Assembly (NCBI GenBank): GCA_000467715.1
Contig: AJFK01000093.1
Location: 186,001 to 250,000, forward strand
DNA: 64,000 nt
From: Hysterium pulicare CBS 123377
Taxonomy: Eukaryota > Ascomycota > Dothideomycetes > Hysteriales > Hysteriaceae
Reading direction: 5' to 3'
The notes below the pieces were generated by a model. The model made no database searches. It was not told the origin of the DNA and worked only from the letters and a program-made list of their open reading frames with translations. Shown here in pieces: positions 11,021 through 64,000 of the stretch. A program made the position numbers and the translations under genes. The stretch's first letter is position 1; each line of letters starts with the position of its first letter.

Positions 11021-11120
11021 GAATGGCTCACAGCAGAAAGGAATGGCTCACAGCAGAAAGGAATGGCTCACAGCAGAGAGGAATGGCTTATAGCACAAGA
11101 GAATGGCTCACCAAATAAGA
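11021..11120 (+). repeat. 20-bp tandem repeat, five units, upstream of gene B
   Basis: Five head-to-tail units start at 11021, 11041, 11061, 11081 and 11101. The first two are identical (GAATGGCTCACAGCAGAAAG), the third differs by one base and the last two are more diverged. Each carries the ATGGCTCA/TGAGCCAT core seen at the other small-gene promoters. The array lies about 90-190 bp upstream of the TATA box, the position expected of an upstream activating sequence. Confidence 0.85.
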
Positions 11121-12790: not shown

Positions 12791-12946
12791 ATGGCTTATA
12801 AGATTGGGGAATGTCTCATAGAACCGGCCTTTGGCTCATAGGACTAGGATATTGCTCATATTAGAAGGGGATGGCTCACAGGAAGGGAGTGGCTCTCAGC
12901 AGAACGGAATGGCTCATAGCAAAATAGAATGGCTCACAGCATAAGG
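12769..12946 (+). repeat. ATGGCTCA repeats, last three units in 20-bp register
   Basis: Degenerate copies of (A)TGGCTC(A) recur from about 12769. The last three units at 12887, 12907 and 12927 keep the exact 20-bp period (GAATGGCTCATAGCAAAATA at 12907). This is the counterpart of the array at 11021 and sits at the same distance from its TATA box. Confidence 0.75.
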
Positions 12947-14515: not shown

Positions 14516-14960
14516 GAAGGAGAAGACGTGTACCTCTGACTGCGAGAATATGAGTAGAAGTAAGTCATAAAAGGAGAGCTGGGTTCAGCTAGTAGTATCG
14601 ATATCATATACCATGATAGAACTTCATAAGCATGGTTCAAAACCGAAAACGTGCGAGTGTTGACTGCAAGGAGATGAGCAGATGTGCAGTCATAAAGAAG
14701 AGCAGGACTCCTTCAGCGGTAGTGACAGCATAAAATATGACAGAACTTCATGAGCATGGCCCAGAACTGAATACGTGCGAGCGTTGACTGTGAAGAGGTG
14801 AGTAGGTAAGAAGTCATAAGGCACAGCTCAACTCAGCCAGGAGTATTAACACCAACACTTATGACAGAATACCATGAGCGTAGCTCGGGATTCGAGAGGT
14901 GCGAGCGCCGACTACAAGAAGATGAGTACCTTGGAAGCCATGGAGAAGAGGACAGACTTA
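14508..14960 (+). repeat. 124-bp tandem repeat, about 3.6 copies
   Basis: Units begin at 14508, 14632, 14756 and 14880, so the period is exactly 124 bp three times despite considerable sequence drift. Landmarks repeat in each unit: (A)TGG-TCAGAA at the start, GTGCGAGYGTTGACTGC, GATGAGTA, GTCATAA, AGAGC, ATGACAGAACTTCATGAGC at the end. The fourth copy breaks off near 14960. The array starts at the motif of promoter module D and extends away from gene D. Confidence 0.8.
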
Positions 14961-30500: not shown

Positions 30501-30982
30501 CTCCTCCAGCCACACAAGGATTCCTATCACAACCTCATCCACCACATCATCGAGCTCGTCAGAGCCGCATCACCTCCCACCAGCCTCATTGGCTACTACT
30601 ACGAGGCTGCACCGAGCATTACTCAGGCGACGGTATTGCGTATGGCAAGTCCAACTGTCCTGTGCCGCGTTGCGATCCTCATATTGCCGTAACACCTGCT
30701 TCGCCGCCTCGCCGCATCCTTCAGTCAAGGGTCGTTGCCATAACCGCCAGACTGTATTTGGGAGGTCTATTTTCAGCCTTCCCTTTTCACTTCGCTCCAC
30801 ATAGCTTATTTCTCGAACTGGGTTAACACATATGCTTTTTCAGTTTCCATGAAACTCTAAAACTAGTGACTTTCGCTTCTCACCTGGAACCACAGTTCCT
30901 CCACACCTTTCCACCTTGAACAGCAGCAGTCACCGAAGCACACGAAAACTTCATTCATCTAACTTCCCTCACCGTCTTCGCC
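24573..30982. other. Gene desert, 6.4 kb, upstream of the WOPR regulator
   Basis: No frame here has a recognisable domain or consistent coding character. The longest pair, minus 27751-27257 (164 aa) and plus 27345-27794 (149 aa), overlap on opposite strands and are both compositionally unremarkable. Small repeats: CACGG repeated four times near 24724-24742, and TCGAAGC repeated three times at about 26094-26115. The last ~800 bases before 30983 are C/T-rich like a long promoter and leader. Giant upstream regions are typical of WOPR master regulators, so much of this may be regulatory. Confidence 0.45.
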
Positions 30983-32470
30983 ATGGAGACGTACAACGGA
31001 CATGTACGCACTCCATCAGATGCTATCCTCCTCTTCGAAGCTTGTCGCATCGGTCTCTTACCACGCGTACAACGACGACTGTCCGAGAAAGAACGACAGC
31101 AGATAAAATCGGGCTCAGTCTTTGTGTGGGATGAAAGGGAAGCTGGCATGCGAAGGTGGACCGATGGGAAATCATGGAGTGCAAGTCGAGTTTCTGGCAG
31201 CTTCTTGACTTATCGAGAGATGGAAGGGAAACGAGGAGGGAACGGCTTCGCTCCACCAGTACAAGCAGCAAAGAAGCCTACAAAGTCGCCTGATGGATCG
31301 AAGGGGGATGATTCCGACGAGGATGGCCCAGATGGATATCGTTACAAACCGGACGGTCTCATGAAACAATCTTTCAGCATCACAACCTCGAGTGGACAGC
31401 ATCTGCATCTGATCAGCTACTATGCTCGTTCACACCCAGCGGCGACTAACCTTCAGCAACCAACACAGGACCCATCCCTTCGCCACATTCGTCCACCAAA
31501 GAACATGTACCCTGAATCGACGGTCAACGAGACTTCGAGCGTCCCTGCCGTGACCCGAGGTCCAATGGGCGGTTCACCGTACGCTCATGCTCCTTCACCA
31601 CATCAAGCAGCAATGGGGTCACCTTACAGTCGACCTGTACCTGCACCTGCAGGCTACATTCCCGCCGGCAACTGGCCACCAACACCAAATGGTACTCCCC
31701 CATACCAATATGGCTACTATCCAGCGCAGGGGCCCCCTCCCCCAGGTCATTCTCCGATCCACTATGCTTATCCGCCACATGCATATGCACAGCACCCACC
31801 TGGACCGACTGTATTTGACAGGCCTCCTCCACCGATTAGCACGAGTGCTCTGCCACCGCCGCCACCGACTCATCTTGCTGGGCCACCGAATGGTCACCCT
31901 CAATATATTGCACACCCACCGCAGTTTATGCCTAACCCGTCACCACGAGCTGTTCAAGCTACTCAACTGCCCCAGCAACCGCCGCATACCAATGGCTATT
32001 CGAACGGTCACCAGATCGATCCAAGACTCGCACCGTCCGAGCATACCAATGGCTATTTGAACGGTCACCAGGTTGATCCAAGACTCACGCAGCCGGAGCA
32101 TACGCAAGGACCCCAACTTCCCGCATTGAATGCACCTGCCGGTCAATCATCAATGAATAAGCCGCCGTCACCACAACCCGCGGAGCCGAGATCACAGAAC
32201 TCAGATTCATTAACAGTTCCCGAAACGAATGGCGCTAGCAATGCTCCTTCTCCTGCTCGAACTATCCCAAGCGTCGACTCCTTGCTCAATAGCCATCTTG
32301 CTGAGAACGTTGCAGACGGCCGGGCTGATCAGACCAATAGCCGATCGGGCAGCAAGAGTCCCAATAGCAATGCCAGAGCCACTCGAGATATTCCTGGGGA
32401 CAGGCTTGACAGTCACGCTGCAGATCAAAAGGCATTGCGCAAACTTAACTCTATGATGCTCATTCGATGA
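30983..32470 (+). CDS. Gti1/Pac2-family (WOPR) transcription factor
   Basis: A single-exon frame of 495 codons. The N-terminal WOPRa half is clear: YNGHVRTPSDAILLFEACRI at residues 3-22, then RRLSEKERQQIKSGSVFVWD, and REAGMRRWTDGKSWSASRVS, SGSFLTYREME. The WOPRb half (LMKQSFSITTSSGQHLHLIS, YYARSHPA) follows after a linker at about residue 130. The remaining ~320 residues are Pro/Gln/Tyr/His-rich and disordered, as in other members. WOPR proteins bind DNA directly and control morphological switching, sporulation, effector expression or mating; the Pac2 branch (shorter, with WTDGKSWSASR) fits better than the Wor1/Ryp1 branch. It contains a near-exact internal duplication near residues 335-375 (NGYSNGHQIDPRLAPSEH versus NGYLNGHQVDPRLTQPEH). 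Confidence 0.92.
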   Translation: METYNGHVRTPSDAILLFEACRIGLLPRVQRRLSEKERQQIKSGSVFVWDEREAGMRRWTDGKSWSASRVSGSFLTYREMEGKRGGNGFAPPVQAAKKPTKSPDGSKGDDSDEDGPDGYRYKPDGLMKQSFSITTSSGQHLHLISYYARSHPAATNLQQPTQDPSLRHIRPPKNMYPESTVNETSSVPAVTRGPMGGSPYAHAPSPHQAAMGSPYSRPVPAPAGYIPAGNWPPTPNGTPPYQYGYYPAQGPPPPGHSPIHYAYPPHAYAQHPPGPTVFDRPPPPISTSALPPPPPTHLAGPPNGHPQYIAHPPQFMPNPSPRAVQATQLPQQPPHTNGYSNGHQIDPRLAPSEHTNGYLNGHQVDPRLTQPEHTQGPQLPALNAPAGQSSMNKPPSPQPAEPRSQNSDSLTVPETNGASNAPSPARTIPSVDSLLNSHLAENVADGRADQTNSRSGSKSPNSNARATRDIPGDRLDSHAADQKALRKLNSMMLIR

Positions 32471-54900: not shown

Positions 54901-56129
54901 GCCGAAAAAGAAAAGAAAGCCACACCTTGCCAATCTATTGCGCCCTCGAATGCCTCTCCGACCAAGAAAAAGAAGAAGTCGGCTGGGAAAGAAGAGACTC
55001 CAGCCCCTGAAGAAGCGGACGAACTCGATCTCATGGCTGGAACGACTGAAGACGATTTCACAGAAGCGCTGGCACATATCAGAGAGCGCGAGCTCCTCTA
55101 TGGTCCACAGTCTCTCCTCGCGAACTTTGGCCCACTCGTAGCAGATCTCTGTGCGAATAACACGACATATGCGGACCCCACTCTGCAAGCTCAAGCCGCT
55201 CTCTGTCTTGCTAAGCTCATGTGCGTGAGCTCAGAGTACTGCGAGCGAAATCTAGGTCTGCTCCTTACAATCCTTGAACGCAGTAAAGACGCCGTCGTGC
55301 GGAGCAATCTTGTCGTCGCTCTCGGCGACATGGCTGTCTGCTTCAATCATCTCATAGACGAGAACACCGACTTCCTCTACCGTCGCTTGAACGATGGCGA
55401 TCCTTCTGTGAAACGAACTTGTCTCATGACTCTGACCTTCCTTATCCTAGCTGGTCAAGTCAAAGTCAAGGGACAGTTGGGCGAAATGGCGAAATGCCTG
55501 GAAGACAGTGATAAGAAGATCGCAGACATGGCTCGCATGTTCTTCTCTGAACTTGCGACGAAGGATAATGCCGTTTACAACCAGTTCGTCGATATGTTTA
55601 GCGTGTTGAGCGCAGATACAGGATTGGACGAAGACGCGTTTAGGAGGATCCTCAAATTCTTGGCTGGGTTTATCGAAAAGGTATGTTCATTCTCTTGTTT
55701 TATTTGTTATATTTCCATGACAGAGCATAGTTTTGCTTTGCCGAGTTTGCCGAAACTGGTAGCCGCTATTTTCTGACCCATGCATTTTCCCCAACATGAA
55801 TATTACTACTAGAATATCCATGTTGGGGAAACTGTATTAGGAAATGGGGGCGGCCGTTATGGGTTAAGTGCTTATTGATCGCTTATCCCTCAGGTCTTGT
55901 TCAGTTTTCCTAGAACGATTCATTACCGTACGGTCATGTGCTAATGTACATGATACAGGACAAACATGCTAAACAGCTCGCTGCGAAGTTTGCGGCGAGG
56001 TTACCTAGAGCCGAGAACGAGAGGCAGTGGAACGATGTCGCCTTTGCTTTGGGCTTGCTGCAACACAAGGATGAAGAGATTCAGAAGTTGGTTGGAGAGG
56101 GTTTCAAGGTTGTCCAAGCTACTGCATAA
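51962..56129 (+). CDS. CND1: Condensin complex subunit 1 (Cnd1/Ycs4/CAP-D2)
   Basis: Exons 51962-52787, 52842-52965, 53016-53157, 53212-55680 and 55959-56129 give 1243 residues, normal for the family. It is an all-helical HEAT-repeat protein: an N-terminal Cnd1 domain (YFDTLQFLLKCAPTFPQDVQ), a charged Ala/Gly-rich patch near residues 175-190, HEAT repeats (CIHY-like YTLRCAIIEVCGNLITMLSK, RAIQVYAKLCDLDQKFPKRR), an acidic Glu/Pro-rich insert near residues 510-580, and the C-terminal HEAT block ending FIEKDKHAKQLAAKFAARLP. Condensin compacts chromosomes in mitosis; this subunit anchors the HEAT part of the complex to DNA. The last intron (278 nt) is far longer than the other four (50-54 nt) and contains a perfect hairpin. 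Confidence 0.92.
55786..55831. repeat. Perfect 13-nt inverted repeat inside the last condensin intron
   Basis: TTTCCCCAACATG at 55786-55798 and its exact complement CATGTTGGGGAAA at 55819-55831, loop 20 nt. It lies in an intron about five times longer than its siblings, so it could mark a small inserted element or a structured intron. Confidence 0.65.
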
Positions 56130-57703
56130 ATCTATCTGAACCCCGAATTGGATCATATTGGTGCCCTGACAATGGTCTGGCATGAGTGCTTGGATTGGCT
56201 TTGGAGTTTGTAATGACTGGTGTGAAAGGGACTTTGGTGTCGCAATGGAACTCTATTTCTGAGCATTATGCACCTGTTCTGTAGTAAATCGTAAATCTGC
56301 GTACACTTCACTTCGCTTCACTTTCCTTATCGCGCTTCTGAACAGAAACCGGCCTTTACGTCTCAGTTTGACCTCTGAGTGACAGGATGATAGACGCAGA
56401 CCGCCGAGGCACACTTGTTTCTTAGTATGATTAGAATGAAGCCGAAGTAACGGCAAGCAAGCGCTCTGCAAAGTAGAAATCAGTAGCCGCAAGTGAAAAT
56501 ATCGTGGCCGCCAAGGGGCCTCGAAGTCGGATCGATGACATCCACGTGGTAGCTTCCAGGACTGGGTCGAGCTATAGTTCCGATCGGAACCTTAGTACTG
56601 TTGCCACTTGAAAGATCCTCGCATCAAACACTCGGCCTACGTAGTACGTGCTCCTATACTCATTACTCCCCGGACTGCAGTTCCCCGATTTTGATCTGTC
56701 CTCAAGTGGACCCATCATTTCTCGCGCTTGTCTTATTGTGACGTCTCTTCCCTCGTAGTTCCATTCAGTCACGGAATCATTAGGATCAAGATCTACAGTA
56801 GCTGTTCAGGGGCTCAGGAGATCAACATCGATTTTAAATCACGAACAAAGTGCATTACAGTAGTTTCCGGAGCGGCGACCTGGCGCGTGGGTTTTAGGAG
56901 AATTAAATGATGTAGTTACGCGTCCTACGAACTATCTCAGCGGCAGACAGAACCTTCAGCTGCAGCAAAAGATTTTCCGTCAACCAGGACGACGGGACAG
57001 TTGCTGAACCATCACCGGGCTTGTGATAGCGGGCGGGAATCCAGCGCCACGAGATTTTCAGCCTTGTCGAACTCGATGAAGAGAACGATCAAGAACGCGA
57101 TGCCAGTACTAACAGAGACAAGTACAGAACTACGGCATGGTAGTATACAGACAAAGACGTCGGGAATGCCGCAAGCTTTCGCCAATTCCCCTTTGATTCG
57201 TGGATAAACCCCGGTCCGGTATCGGCGAATTAAGACTGATGCAAGTGCCGGTACCTTGCAGGTGTCAGAAACCGCTTTTGGATCCGAACGACCTCACGCC
57301 AACCGCGATAGCGCATGGACTGGACCTAATGCGGCTTCACGATCGGTTGCGGCTGGCTTTGAGCCGCGTTCTTGCGCAACGGAGATTCGGCCGACATCAG
57401 AGGTACTACGGAGATATATTCCCAAACGGTCTTCCGCGAGATCCATCCAGCAGCACGTCTTGTGGCCTGGAATGTTCCTGGGGCGAAATAAGATCTATTA
57501 GGACTAAACAAGCTATTGTGCTCCGATGCACATGGCAAAAAATCTAACCCGCAGCTGGGTTCTTCCAAGATCCAGGTTGGCGGGAAGATGATCAAGTATC
57601 TTCGGTAATGTTATAGGGATATATACTTTCACCCCTGGACCCCTGGGTAAATCAATCTTTTGGCCAAACAGTTTCAATTGTGGTACGAATCATCTGATTC
57701 ACT
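56130..57703. other. Intergenic, 1.6 kb, with TATA-type promoter at its end
   Basis: No gene is convincing; the frame 57200-57547 (plus) has no domain. A TATATACTTTCACCCCTGG stretch at 57621 followed by a short leader marks the probable promoter of the pectinesterase gene, about 80 bp before its ATG. Confidence 0.45.
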
Positions 57704-60700
57704 ATGCGGCTCCATGTCACTGCTGCAGCTGCGCTCTTTGGAGTCGCAGCTGCGCAATCAAGCACGCTGTCCACGCTGTCTTCTACTCCTGCATCTTCTT
57801 CCTCTACTCCTCTTGTTACTACGATCTCTTCTTCTCCTTCCGCTTCGTTATCTTCATCGACTGCACCGTCAGCATCAGGGAATGCTGTGACCGTAGCATT
57901 AGATGGCTCTGGACAATTCAGTGTCATTGAGGCTGCCATCTCCTATGCACAGAAAAGCGGCTTCCCTACTGTAACCATCAAAGCTGGGTTAGTGGAATTG
58001 GGTTCTTCCGCATAAGACTGTTTCTGACTTGGATCTTAGTACATACTCACAAACCGCCACAATCCTTGCCACTCAAACCGTCACTGTCGTTGGCGAATCA
58101 GACTCTTCGGATGATTATTCGCAGAACAAGGTCACTATTACTAACACTACTCTTCCTCTGAAGATTGGAACGTACTCTTTGAAGGGAGCAACTTTCAGGA
58201 ATATCAATTTTGTCAACCCCAGCACGGCCGACTCTTCCAATGCAGTACAACTCAGCGGGACTGATCTCGCCTTCTACACCTGTCAGATCGTATCCGCCGG
58301 CGGACAGGCCATATATGCAAATAACGGAATTGGTTTCATTACGAACTCTTACATCGAGGGGTCCACCAAACTGTTTGCAGGATACCCAACCCTATATGTG
58401 TACGATTCAGTCATCAGCGCGACTGCTGTGTCAAACACAATTATTGTATACACAAAGGGGCCAACATACTCGGTTAACTCACAAGTCTACAACTCGACCG
58501 TGGTATTTGATTCATGCTCAATCACCCCTAAGTCGGGCTCCACCGCTTCCGGCGTGTATCTAGCAGCTCCGAACGCCAATGGATCCGTTGCCATCTGGCG
58601 AAATTGCAACCTTGCAAGTTACATCAGTAGCGCAGGTGTTCATTCAAGCTCGTCGAAGTATGCCTGCTTCTACGGTGAATTTGCGGACACCGGAGCAGGG
58701 AGTTATGCCAGCCAGGCAAGCTCTCGATCTATCTACGATGTCCTTCTTTCTGCCGATCAGCTCGGTTCGTTTTCTTTGAGCAACGTTTTTGGCAATTCAA
58801 TGCCTCCTTATGCCACCTCCAACACAGATTGGATCGATCAAAGTGTTGTACAGGCAATAGCTCAATCTGATGCTGCCCAGATTGCGTCAGCAAAAGGAAG
58901 CTCGAGTATCTCGAGTTCGAGTAGTACGACCTCAACCGCCACGTCAGTTTCCACCTCTTCGCCAAGCGCTTCCACGTCGGGAGTCACGACGACGACGCCG
59001 ACCAGTGTTAGTTTGTCAAGCTCGAGCACAAGCATTTTAGTTTCATCCTCCGCGATTCCAAGTACAACTTCGTTGGTGGGAACAAGCACTAGCGTCGTGT
59101 CGTCAGTCTCGACTGCTTCCGGCTCAGTCTCGACCATTTCCAGCTCGATTTCTTCCGGCTCAGTCTCATCTTCCACGATTTCTTCCGTGGCATCCTCGAC
59201 ATCAGGGTGCTCCCTCCCAAGCGGCGTTTCTTCGAGCGCTGTTGTCGTTGGCCCTGCAGGCTCATGCGCGCAGTACAATAGCATTTCTGACGCTCTTGGA
59301 AACTTTACATCATCTGTTTCGGCCTACATATACGTTCTTGCGGGAACGTATACGGAACAAATTGTCACCAGCCGCACAGGCGCTACAGTTATTCGAGGAG
59401 AGAGTAGTAACCTATTGAACCCAAACAGCAACAAGGTTACGGTCCAATTCTCAAGCGCGGTGGCATCTAATGCCGGTAGTTCTGAGCCATCAAGTGTGTT
59501 CCGATCAATGACATCAAGCGCAAAGAACTATGCCTTCTATGGCATTAACTTCGAGAACACATACCCCTCAACTACCGGCTACATCGCAATCGCTATGGAC
59601 ATTAAAGCCCAGCAAGTAGGCTTTTATTCATGCACATTCAAATCTTCGCAAGGCACTTTGTTGGTCAACACCGGAACATTCTATTTCTCCAATTGCGTGA
59701 TCTATGGAACCACCGATTTTGTTTGGGGTTATGGTGGGGCATATTTCTATAATTCAAAGATTGTGAGCTTGAGTACGAGCGGAACTTCAACAATTGCCGC
59801 TCAGTACTATCCTGCAAGCAGTGGGCCATCACAGATCGTATTTGATACCTGTGCCATTGTCCCGTTCAGCTCCTCCGTGCCGCAGGGTTCCGTATATCTT
59901 GGACGAGACTACACAACCAGCTCACGAGTTGCGGTGATAAATTCCTTCCTAGATGCTCACATAGCGTCAGTTGGTTGGTACCTGAAGAGCTCTACGACAA
60001 ATGTCACTTTCGTGGAAGCGAACAATACTGGGCCAGGAGCTGCAACATCAGGCCGGATATCTGTAGTACTCACAGATGGTTCTGGATATTCCGCTGCCAA
60101 TGTCCTTGGTTCCACTAGTTGGATAGACCAAAGCGCTGTAGCAGCATTCAGTGGGTTTCCAGATTCCGTGTACTCCGTCTCAACATCCAGTTCCGTTACG
60201 TCTTCTATCGGCTCTACCACGTCTTCTGTTGGCTCGGTCACGACCTCTGTGGGCTCGGTCACGTCTTCTGTCGCCTCTACAACTTCTTCATCTGCTGCTA
60301 CATCTACTGCAACGCTCATCGTCTCCACATCCCCAGGCGCCGGTGAATATCCAAATATCACCGCTGCCATAGCTGCACTTCCGAACGACTCGAAGCCCTA
60401 CACGATCTTAGTACGTGCTGGTACTTACAACGAGCAGCTTTCGGTCACGAGAGCTGGGAAAGTGACCCTTCGTGGTGATACTGACTTCCCTAACGATTTC
60501 TCTCAAAACCAGGTATATAAAATCCAAAAGGGACCCCCGGGTTTCATGTTTTTGACTAATGTTTCTCTTCTAGGTCATTGTGACATTTTCGAGCGGTAGA
60601 CTGACCAGTCTCAGCCAGAATGAGCAGACTCCAGTTTTGAACGTCAAACACCAGAACTCAGATGTTTCGGGTTTCGCTGTCTACAACATCGATTTCATTA

Positions 60701-63700
60701 ATAGCTATCCGCAGACGGCGAATACTGCCGCACTGGCGGGTGACTTTTACCTTTACGACTTTGCCGCCTATGGATGTAGTTTCAAGGGGTACCAAGACAC
60801 GTTACTGGCCAACAAAGGATCTCAAGTTTTCAGCAACTGCTACATCGAAGGAAGTGTGGACTTCATATGGGGCTACTCAACAGCTTATTTCCATGGTTGT
60901 TATATCGCAAGCAACACCCCAGGTGCTTGTGTTGCTGCTCAAAGCCGCTCCAGTGCAACTGCAGTCGGAGGATACGTATTCGACTCTTGTTATGTCACAT
61001 ATACCGACACGTATGGCAGCAGCTACGGCCTATCATACCTCGGTCGCCCGTACTCGAACTACTCGATCGCAGTGTACATGAACTCGTATATCGACAAACA
61101 TATCAACTCTGCGGGATGGTCCGTCTGGCAGACAAGTAACCCCCAAACTGGAGGTGTCCTTTTCGGAGAATACAATAACTCTGGTCCTGGTTCCTGGTCG
61201 GCTTCTACCTCGCGTGCTTCATTTGCAACCAACTTGACCGCGTCACAAGCCCAAGCGTACACTCTGTCCAGCTGGATCGGGGACACATCTTGGATCGACA
61301 TGACAGCATATAACTATGCCCCATCATACGATATATCCGGATCTTCTCCCACGACAACGTCTCCTTCCGGAACCGCATCTGCAAGCAGTACTGTCTCTGC
61401 AAGTAGCACCGCAAGTGCTACTTGGGGACACCCAAGCTCTGGTATCGTTCCGCCAGCAGGCGCCGTACTGGTCTCGCCAAGTGGTACAGTGAATGGATCT
61501 TACGCCAATCTTACCAGTGCATTGGCATCTCTCCCTTCTGGAAGCAGTGTTCAGATCATTTTCATGTACCCTGGTACGTACAATGAGCAAGTTCCCTCCA
61601 TCAATCGTGCTGGTCCGGTCCAGATCATTGGGTACACAACAGACTCTCCTGGTAAGAATTATACCACCAATCAAGTCACAGTGTCTTTTGCTAGAGGCTT
61701 GTCTGTCTCTCCTTTGCCCACTGGCCATTCCGACGCGGAAACCGCAGTATTTTCAACCGCTTCCACTAAAATTGCACTCTATAACATCAACATCATCAAC
61801 ACCGATAATTTAGATGGTGCTCTCTCAAGCTACGTCACTTTGGCCGGTTCGATTTATGGAAATGACATTGGATTCTATGGATGTTCTTTCATTGGCTGGC
61901 AGGATACGCTCCTGACCGGAGCAACCTCTGGATACCAGTACTACGAGTCCTCGTATATCGAAGGAGCAATCGATTTTATTTGGGGTTACTCAAAGGCATA
62001 CTTCAAAGGCTGCACCATTGGCGCTAAGCGTGCGTCCTCGTGTGTTACCGCGCAAAGTAGAGCATCGTCCTCTGCTATCGGAGGCTATATTTTCGATCAA
62101 TGTCTCTTCACTGCAGCCTCAGATGCTACTGTCGATCTCACCCAATCAGTTTACCTTGGTCGTCCATACTCCAAATATGCTTGGGTCTATGTCAAAAACT
62201 CATATCTCGACAAGACCATTCAGCCAGCGGGATGGAAGGTCTGGTCAGCCAGTGATCCAAGAACAGACAACATCTACTTTGCCGAGTTCAACAACTCCGG
62301 GCCCGGTAACTGGGAAAGCAATTCTGCAGCTCGCCTGGCTTTTGGAAATGCCACCCTTCTTACATCCGATGCATGGAGCTTGGCGAGTGTGATGGACTCC
62401 ACTTCTTGGATTGATATGACATACTGGAATACCATTCAGACGCCGACTCTTTCTGCCCAGGCTGCCACCACTACGACTCCAGTCGTCAATGGTAGTTCTA
62501 CGTTCAATGGTACCACTCCTCCAGCGGGTGCGTATATTGTTTCTAAGACCGCAATTGAAGGTGTGACGACATACTCCTCCATTCAAGATGCTCTGAACGC
62601 CCTGCCCACATCAACCAAGGTGACACCTATCGTCTTTATCTATCCTGGAGTGTATACTGAACAGCTCATTGTCAACCGCTCTGGAACCACCATTTTCCGC
62701 GGTTACTCGGCGAGCACGGACGACTATACTGAGAACCAAGTCACTATACGATACAATGCGGCGGTCGACACTCAATCGGACGCTTCTAATTCCGACTCAG
62801 CTACCGTTTATGCCACCGGAAACTACTTCCAGGCTTACAACATTAATTTTGACAACAACTTCGGCACAACAGAAGACTATGCGTCGCTAGGCTTTGCGGT
62901 GAAGAGCAGCAAGTATGCATCACTCTACGGCTGCTCTGTAACTGGTGGTCAGGACTCCCTTCTGATAAATGGCTACTTCTTCGCTTTCAACTCCTACATT
63001 GCAGGAACGGTTGATTTCATCTGGGGATCTGGGGCTGGATATTTCCTAAGCTCCACGATCTCACCTCTCGAGGACGATATCAACATTACAGCTGACAAGC
63101 GAGCTTCTAACATCACTAACGCGGGTTTTGTTTTCGATCAGTGCACCATCGTCGCTGCTTCAAGCGCTGGGACACTGACTGACGTCTCGCTTGGCCGACC
63201 TTGGAATGACTTAGCAAGGGTTGCGTATATTAAATCTTATCTGAGTTCAATGATCATTCCAGCTGGTTGGGAGCAATGGTATGTTTCGAGACTTCTCTAG
63301 AAAACGCTCTATTCTAATCAAAGCTAATTGTTATGAAATAGGTCGAAGAGCAGTCCCCAGACTGACCAAGTCACATTTGGCGAATATTGCAATACTGGGC
63401 CCGGCGCCGCTTCCCTCAGCAGTCGTGCAAGCTTCTCGCAGCAGCTTTCTGATGCTAATGTTGTTCAATTCGAGCTGGCGAACTTCTTTACCACGACCAG
63501 CTGGATCAACTTCACTTACGTCGATGTCACACCCTTTGTTCCAGGCAATTGCTCGACGACAAGCCCGACGAGTTCATCAGTTCGTCCGACGTCAACCTCA
63601 GCCTCTTCGTCTTCGCTTAGTGCTGTTTACAAGACCATCACCGTTTCTTCGCTGTCTACATTCTATGTTACAAGCCCAATTACCGTCCTGAGCAGTACTA

Positions 63701-64000
63701 CGACTCGCATCACTTCAAATGTTGGCTTGACTATAACTCCCGCTGTCAGCTACGCGACTACGACTGTAAAATCGACCAATAGTGCCACTATTACGGTTTC
63801 GGAACCTGATGTCACGAAGACGTCGTCCACAATCCTTACTGAAAACCAGAGTGTGACGATAACGTCCGCTCCTGTGACGAAGACCAGCACTTTGAAACAA
63901 ACGTCAACAATGACGATAACCCAAAGCGTCCCTGGTGACACTCAGACGATCAAGTCTACTTCCACCATTCTGAGCACGTCTACTTCGACTCTGAAGTCAG
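57704..64000 (+). CDS. Giant secreted protein with five tandem pectinesterase domains (3' end outside window)
   Basis: Exons 57704-57987, 58040-60512, 60574-63278 and 63342 to beyond the window; at least 2040 aa. Signal peptide MRLHVTAAAALFGVAAAQ. Five CE8 pectinesterase beta-helix domains lie at about residues 59-369, 500-800, 862-1165, 1218-1540 and 1572-1888, separated by Ser/Thr-rich linkers that should be heavily O-glycosylated, with a Ser/Thr-rich stalk after the fifth. Domains 3-5 keep the catalytic set: QD (GYQDTLL, GWQDTLL, GGQDSLL), the nucleophile Asp in VDFIWG/IDFIWG, and Arg in LGRP. Domain 1 has lost all three (GSTKLFAGY; VYLAAPN); domain 2 has QG instead of QD but keeps TDFVWG and LGR. 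Normal enzymes have one domain; the products demethylate pectin at the plant cell wall. Confidence 0.9.

Follow-up and report, generated by a model that had tools for sequence, protein, structure and literature searches.

Among the closest known relatives of the protein reported here is the pectin methylesterase (PME) of Aspergillus niger (PDB 5c1c/5c1e; CE8, PF01095), which is the top solved relative of module D2, of module D4 and of a profile built from modules D3-D5. It is a solved chain of 299 residues that consists of one domain and possesses all five active-site residues. Larger architectures are known from bacteria: large multi-domain PMEs carry lyase, hydrolase and surface-binding domains (PMC7807696), and a Butyrivibrio fibrisolvens pectinesterase of the PmeC5 type is a secreted protein of 2089 aa in which CE8 is combined with adhesin-like domains (PMC12109409). 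The latter is similarly very large, but it differs from the chain described below in being bacterial and, in the cited part of its description, in comprising one named, unrepeated CE8 together with a PL9 lyase (PMC12109409). Among plant proteins, the maize PMEs Ga1, Ga2 and Tcb1 carry a CE8 domain with mutated conserved residues, and a mode of action without PME activity of their own has been suggested for them; repeated CE8 modules go unmentioned in the cited portion of that work (PMC9010485). CE8 genes, modules or proteins were also counted in other studies whose relevant sections leave repeated CE8 unmentioned (PMC8028249, PMC7807696, PMC4769552, PMC7981871), and full-text searches of open-access papers yielded no fungal protein with repeated CE8 among the papers listed and the sections consulted.

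In the window, a stretch of 64 kb from Hysterium pulicare CBS 123377, one gene encodes a very long protein with five CE8 modules (D1-D5; Table 1), in contrast to the single domain of the A. niger enzyme, and none of the five has a full active site. An earlier note on this DNA had proposed one polypeptide of at least 2040 residues. Rejoining the exons from the DNA gives exactly this length: the spliced frame extends from the ATG at 57704 to 63999, and stop codons between the domains, which the same note had named as evidence against a single chain, are absent from all 2040 spliced codons. Based on local base composition, the chance of a stop-free run of 2039 codons is about 7e-40. The frame is still open at 64000, and both 2040 residues and five modules are thus counts within the window. 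An in-frame stop is located just upstream of the ATG (the stop-to-stop frame begins at 57698), and the three splice junctions restore the residues KAG/TY, QNQ/VIVTF and WEQW/SKSS. We infer a single transcript for the whole chain.

Table 1. Features of the five-module CE8 gene (window positions; S+T, serine plus threonine).
Feature	Position	Strand	Remarks
Start codon and signal peptide-like N-terminus	57704-57757	+	MRLHVTAAAALFGVAAAQ; from translation
Exon 1	57704-57987	+	
N-terminal Ser/Thr-rich linker	57758-57880	+	residues 19-60, 62% S+T
D1, degenerate CE8 module	57881-58871	+	residues 60-372; PF01095 56.9 bits (spliced)
Intron 1	57988-58039	+	52 nt, GTTAGT...CTTAG, inside D1
Exon 2	58040-60512	+	
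Ser/Thr-rich linker 1	58872-59204	+	111 aa, 64% S+T
D2, CE8 module without Asp136 and Gln113 equivalents	59205-60173	+	residues 484-806; PF01095 97.5 bits
Ser/Thr-rich linker 2	60174-60308	+	45 aa, 69% S+T; 21-nt tandem repeat inside
D3, CE8 module	60309-61341	+	residues 852-1175; PF01095 126.9 bits (exon-3 part)
Intron 2	60513-60573	+	61 nt, phase 0, GT...AG, inside D3
Exon 3	60574-63278	+	
Ser/Thr-rich linker 3	61342-61428	+	29 aa, 62% S+T
D4, CE8 module	61429-62460	+	residues 1205-1548; PF01095 125.5 bits
Short linker 4	62461-62505	+	15 aa, 47% S+T
D5, CE8 module	62506-63549	+	residues 1564-1890; PF01095 115 bits (exon-3 part)
Intron 3	63279-63341	+	63 nt, GT...AG, inside D5
Exon 4	63342-64000	+	runs up to window edge
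Ser/Thr-rich stalk	63550-64000	+	52% S+T over 150 residues; open at window edge

That adjoining single-domain genes were misjoined, in the gene model or in the assembly, is very improbable. The linkers are in frame and free of stops, and all three introns fall within domains and none within a linker, which argues against fused neighbouring gene models; the divergence between the modules is also too great for a duplication introduced by the assembly. Separate neighbouring genes were consequently rejected, the frame being continuous and every intron lying within a domain. Recent internal duplication or an assembly artefact was rejected as well, given that the modules are too diverged and large direct repeats are absent: in a search of 55000-64000 for direct repeats of at least 40 nt, the only hits were the 21-nt array of the linker and a single pair of 41 nt at 71%.

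Membership of the family was assessed by scanning the regions one by one against PF01095 (gathering cut-off 27 bits). The earlier note had suggested such a search of the translated exons, and all five regions lie above the gathering score, with 56.9-126.9 bits; the exon-2 part of D1 alone reaches 31.9 bits. A profile of the five modules and the A. niger and carrot PMEs was also run over all six frames of the 64 kb (minimum frame length 30 residues), and it matched only the four frames of this gene. With regard to the right-handed parallel beta-helix fold of the family, an AlphaFold2 model of D4 of modest confidence (five aligned rows; mean pLDDT 66, pTM 0.77) has the A. niger PME 5c1e as its top Foldseek match (E 3.1e-14, TM 0.70 by query length). 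For D1 (residues 96-372) the confidence of the model is too low for conclusions on its cleft (mean pLDDT 55, pTM 0.67), and its top match, again 5c1e, is weak (E 3.1e-4, TM 0.56). By sequence, the best solved match of D1 is carrot PME 1gq8 (E 2.6e-11), followed by the A. niger enzyme (E 3.4e-8).

The active sites give a different picture for the individual modules. In PMEs, Asp157 acts as nucleophile and Asp136 as acid/base. We mapped the active-site positions on the carrot and A. niger enzymes, using carrot numbering. D1 retains none of the five conserved residues: Gln135 is replaced by Gly, Asp136 by Gln, Asp157 by Lys and Arg225 by Ala, and position 113 reads Asn or Ser depending on the alignment; in addition, Trp227 is replaced by Asn. 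Three of the five (Gln135, Asp157 and Arg225) persist in D2, with Gly in place of Asp136 and Gln113 gone. D3, D4 and D5 each keep four, namely Gln135, Asp136, Asp157 and Arg225; the Gln at 113 is absent, and the letter that replaces it varies with the alignment. Thus the full set Gln113, Gln135, Asp136, Asp157 and Arg225 is kept by none of the five modules. Gln occupies position 113 in nine of the ten reference rows, which comprise the A. niger and carrot PMEs and eight bacterial sequences (two near-identical pairs among them); the tenth, L011, has a Gln one residue aside. In plant PME the five active-site residues are highly conserved, and according to the cited part of one study their mutation significantly lowers activity (PMC9010485).

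The five domains that the earlier note called complete are so in the extent of the family match, whereas their active sites are incomplete throughout and degenerate in D1 and D2. Its further proposal, five working PMEs that act processively or multivalently on one chain, is in line with the PF01095 score of every module. However, D1 lacks Gln113, Gln135, Asp136, Asp157 and Arg225, and D2 lacks Gln113 and Asp136; with Gln113 missing from all modules, we regard this proposal as highly improbable. D1 does not fit it, and D2 probably does not either. Multivalent binding of pectin by the chain is possible. D3-D5 may be weak or inactive enzymes, as Gln113 is missing. However, a bacterial tandem frame (L012, see below) has Ser at 113 in both modules and keeps the other four residues; the loss of Gln113 is therefore not unique and need not mean the death of the enzyme.

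Another pair of positions changes jointly. Trp is found at 160 in D2-D5 and Tyr at 227 in D2-D4, so that Phe160/Trp227 is replaced by Trp/Tyr in D2-D4 (59205-62460), and the same pair occurs in the bacterial rows L010 and L011. This could be a compensating swap in the substrate cleft.

The modules share 24-45% identity with each other (24.3-43.4% in the five-domain alignment, 26-45% in a wider one), and 29-36% with the A. niger PME (D2-D5, 33-36%), values that argue against a recent duplication or an assembly error. In the phylogenetic tree, D1-D5 and the A. niger PME group together with a support of 98/98, apart from carrot and the eight bacterial rows. Within this group, D3 pairs with D4 (93/96) and D2 with D5 (86/87). 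The five modules as a single group received a support of 73/56 and were recovered in 74% of 200 bootstrap trees, which weakly favours a common origin after the split from the A. niger PME. Constrained trees, with groupings picked after the tree had been seen, gave p-AU 0.027 for D3-D5 with A. niger and 0.052 for D1, D2 and D5 with A. niger. A transfer from bacteria was also considered and is unsupported, as D1-D5 join the A. niger PME at 98/98, with this one sequence as the only outside fungal representative.

D1 has an end branch of 2.46 compared to a median of 0.86, and because of this length its position in the tree is unsure. Such a branch is expected after the loss of catalytic constraint with the frame still open. 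Together with the loss of all five active-site residues, it would also fit a gene in decay, whose N-terminal domains drift and retain no role. However, 2040 codons without stop or frameshift, and the fact that D1 and D2 still score above the PF01095 cut-off, speak against decay, which we consider improbable.

We rather favour, with some reservation, a secreted array in which three probable PMEs (D3-D5) are placed behind two degenerate N-terminal modules (D1 and D2). The four residues kept in D3-D5, despite a pairwise identity of only 34-45%, suggest continued selection for catalysis. Five diverged CE8 modules would thereby be spaced by Ser/Thr-rich, probably O-glycosylated linkers within one secreted protein. 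D3-D5, which adjoin the C-terminal stalk, would most likely de-methylesterify homogalacturonan, and D1 and D2 would most likely be non-catalytic, serving contact to pectin or other glycans, or spacing. The activity of D3-D5, the binding by D1 and D2 and an anchoring of the chain are all putative. One more specific version, possible though rather unlikely, is that the outer CE8 modules are dead pectin-contact domains which hold the substrate for three active copies nearer to the cell.

Alternatively, all five modules might be inactive or nearly so, and the protein might be a multivalent surface lectin or adhesin made from CE8 folds. The absence of Gln113 from all five, the further degeneration of D1 and D2 and the presence of a Ser/Thr-rich stalk would agree with this idea, as would the maize cross-incompatibility PMEs, which the cited part of the maize study suggests to be inactive and to act through other PMEs (PMC9010485). 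However, Gln135, Asp136, Asp157 and Arg225 are retained in D3-D5 across the divergence mentioned above, and we judge this alternative unlikely.

The N-terminus of the chain is hydrophobic and resembles a signal peptide as judged by eye, in line with the earlier claim of a secreted polypeptide, and we consider the protein to be probably secreted. Ser/Thr-rich linkers and a stalk had been claimed as well, and the composition bears this out (47-69% S+T in the linkers, 52% in the stalk). Ser/Thr-rich stalks are common in fungal surface proteins, and the spacers are probably O-glycosylated.

To place the module count, prokaryote samples that share a few genomes were searched with PF01095 at an E-value limit of 0.001. 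For the genus of G001, at least 8 of the 59 genomes contained a match, for the class of G045 at least 41 of the 291 and for the class of G003 at least 21 of the 141; these are lower bounds, since in some genomes only some of the first-look candidates were scored. Where two matches were fragments of a single domain, the pair was excluded from the tandem count. Among the matches listed, two CE8 matches per frame occur in G045:C134, G320:C13 and G352:C9, the latter two pairs being inferred from shared contig, strand and frame length, with a partial second domain in G352. Neither three or more CE8 per frame nor five modules with graded residue loss were seen among the matches listed for these samples; one extra stretch beyond the two CE8 of G045:C134 scored only 6.0 bits and was left uncounted. 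Narrow sequence patterns gave 65 matches on genome contigs, with three distant bacterial relatives. On viral contigs there were 10 pattern matches, with no relative. In the three genomes with these relatives, the D3-D5 profile hit 13 places, the same number as PF01095. Plasmid proteins contributed 30 records, all below 60% identity (24.8-32.4% among the 15 matches listed).

A similar arrangement is L012 (G045:C134:1500-9500), a bacterial frame of 1963 aa, from a genome of the genus of G001, with two CE8 modules that are 60% identical. It resembles the fungal chain in its tandem CE8 within one frame and in the lack of Gln113 from both modules. However, it comprises two modules, both with Gln135, Asp136, Asp157 and Arg225, whereas the fungal chain comprises five that are 24-45% identical. 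Thus the principle of tandem CE8 already exists in bacteria, and it is the number of modules that is unusual. Should the chain prove real and be expressed, it would offer a natural example of one family contributing both catalytic and pseudo-enzyme modules to a single polypeptide. One could then test directly whether a dead CE8 fold acts as a carbohydrate-binding module, and whether tethered PME units alter the pattern of pectin de-esterification.

Elsewhere in the window, a low-GC stretch contains two arrays, at 11021-11111 and 12863-12946 and thus some 1.8 kb from each other, whose 20-nt units (GAATGGCTCACAGC...) are related, and a 124-nt unit is repeated about twice at 14613-14869 with a 73% match. 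Gti1/Pac2 regulators are a fungal family, whose presence in the window agrees, as do the short introns, with fungal DNA, and a frame of this family at 30920-32470 contains a 57-nt tandem repeat at 31984-32103.
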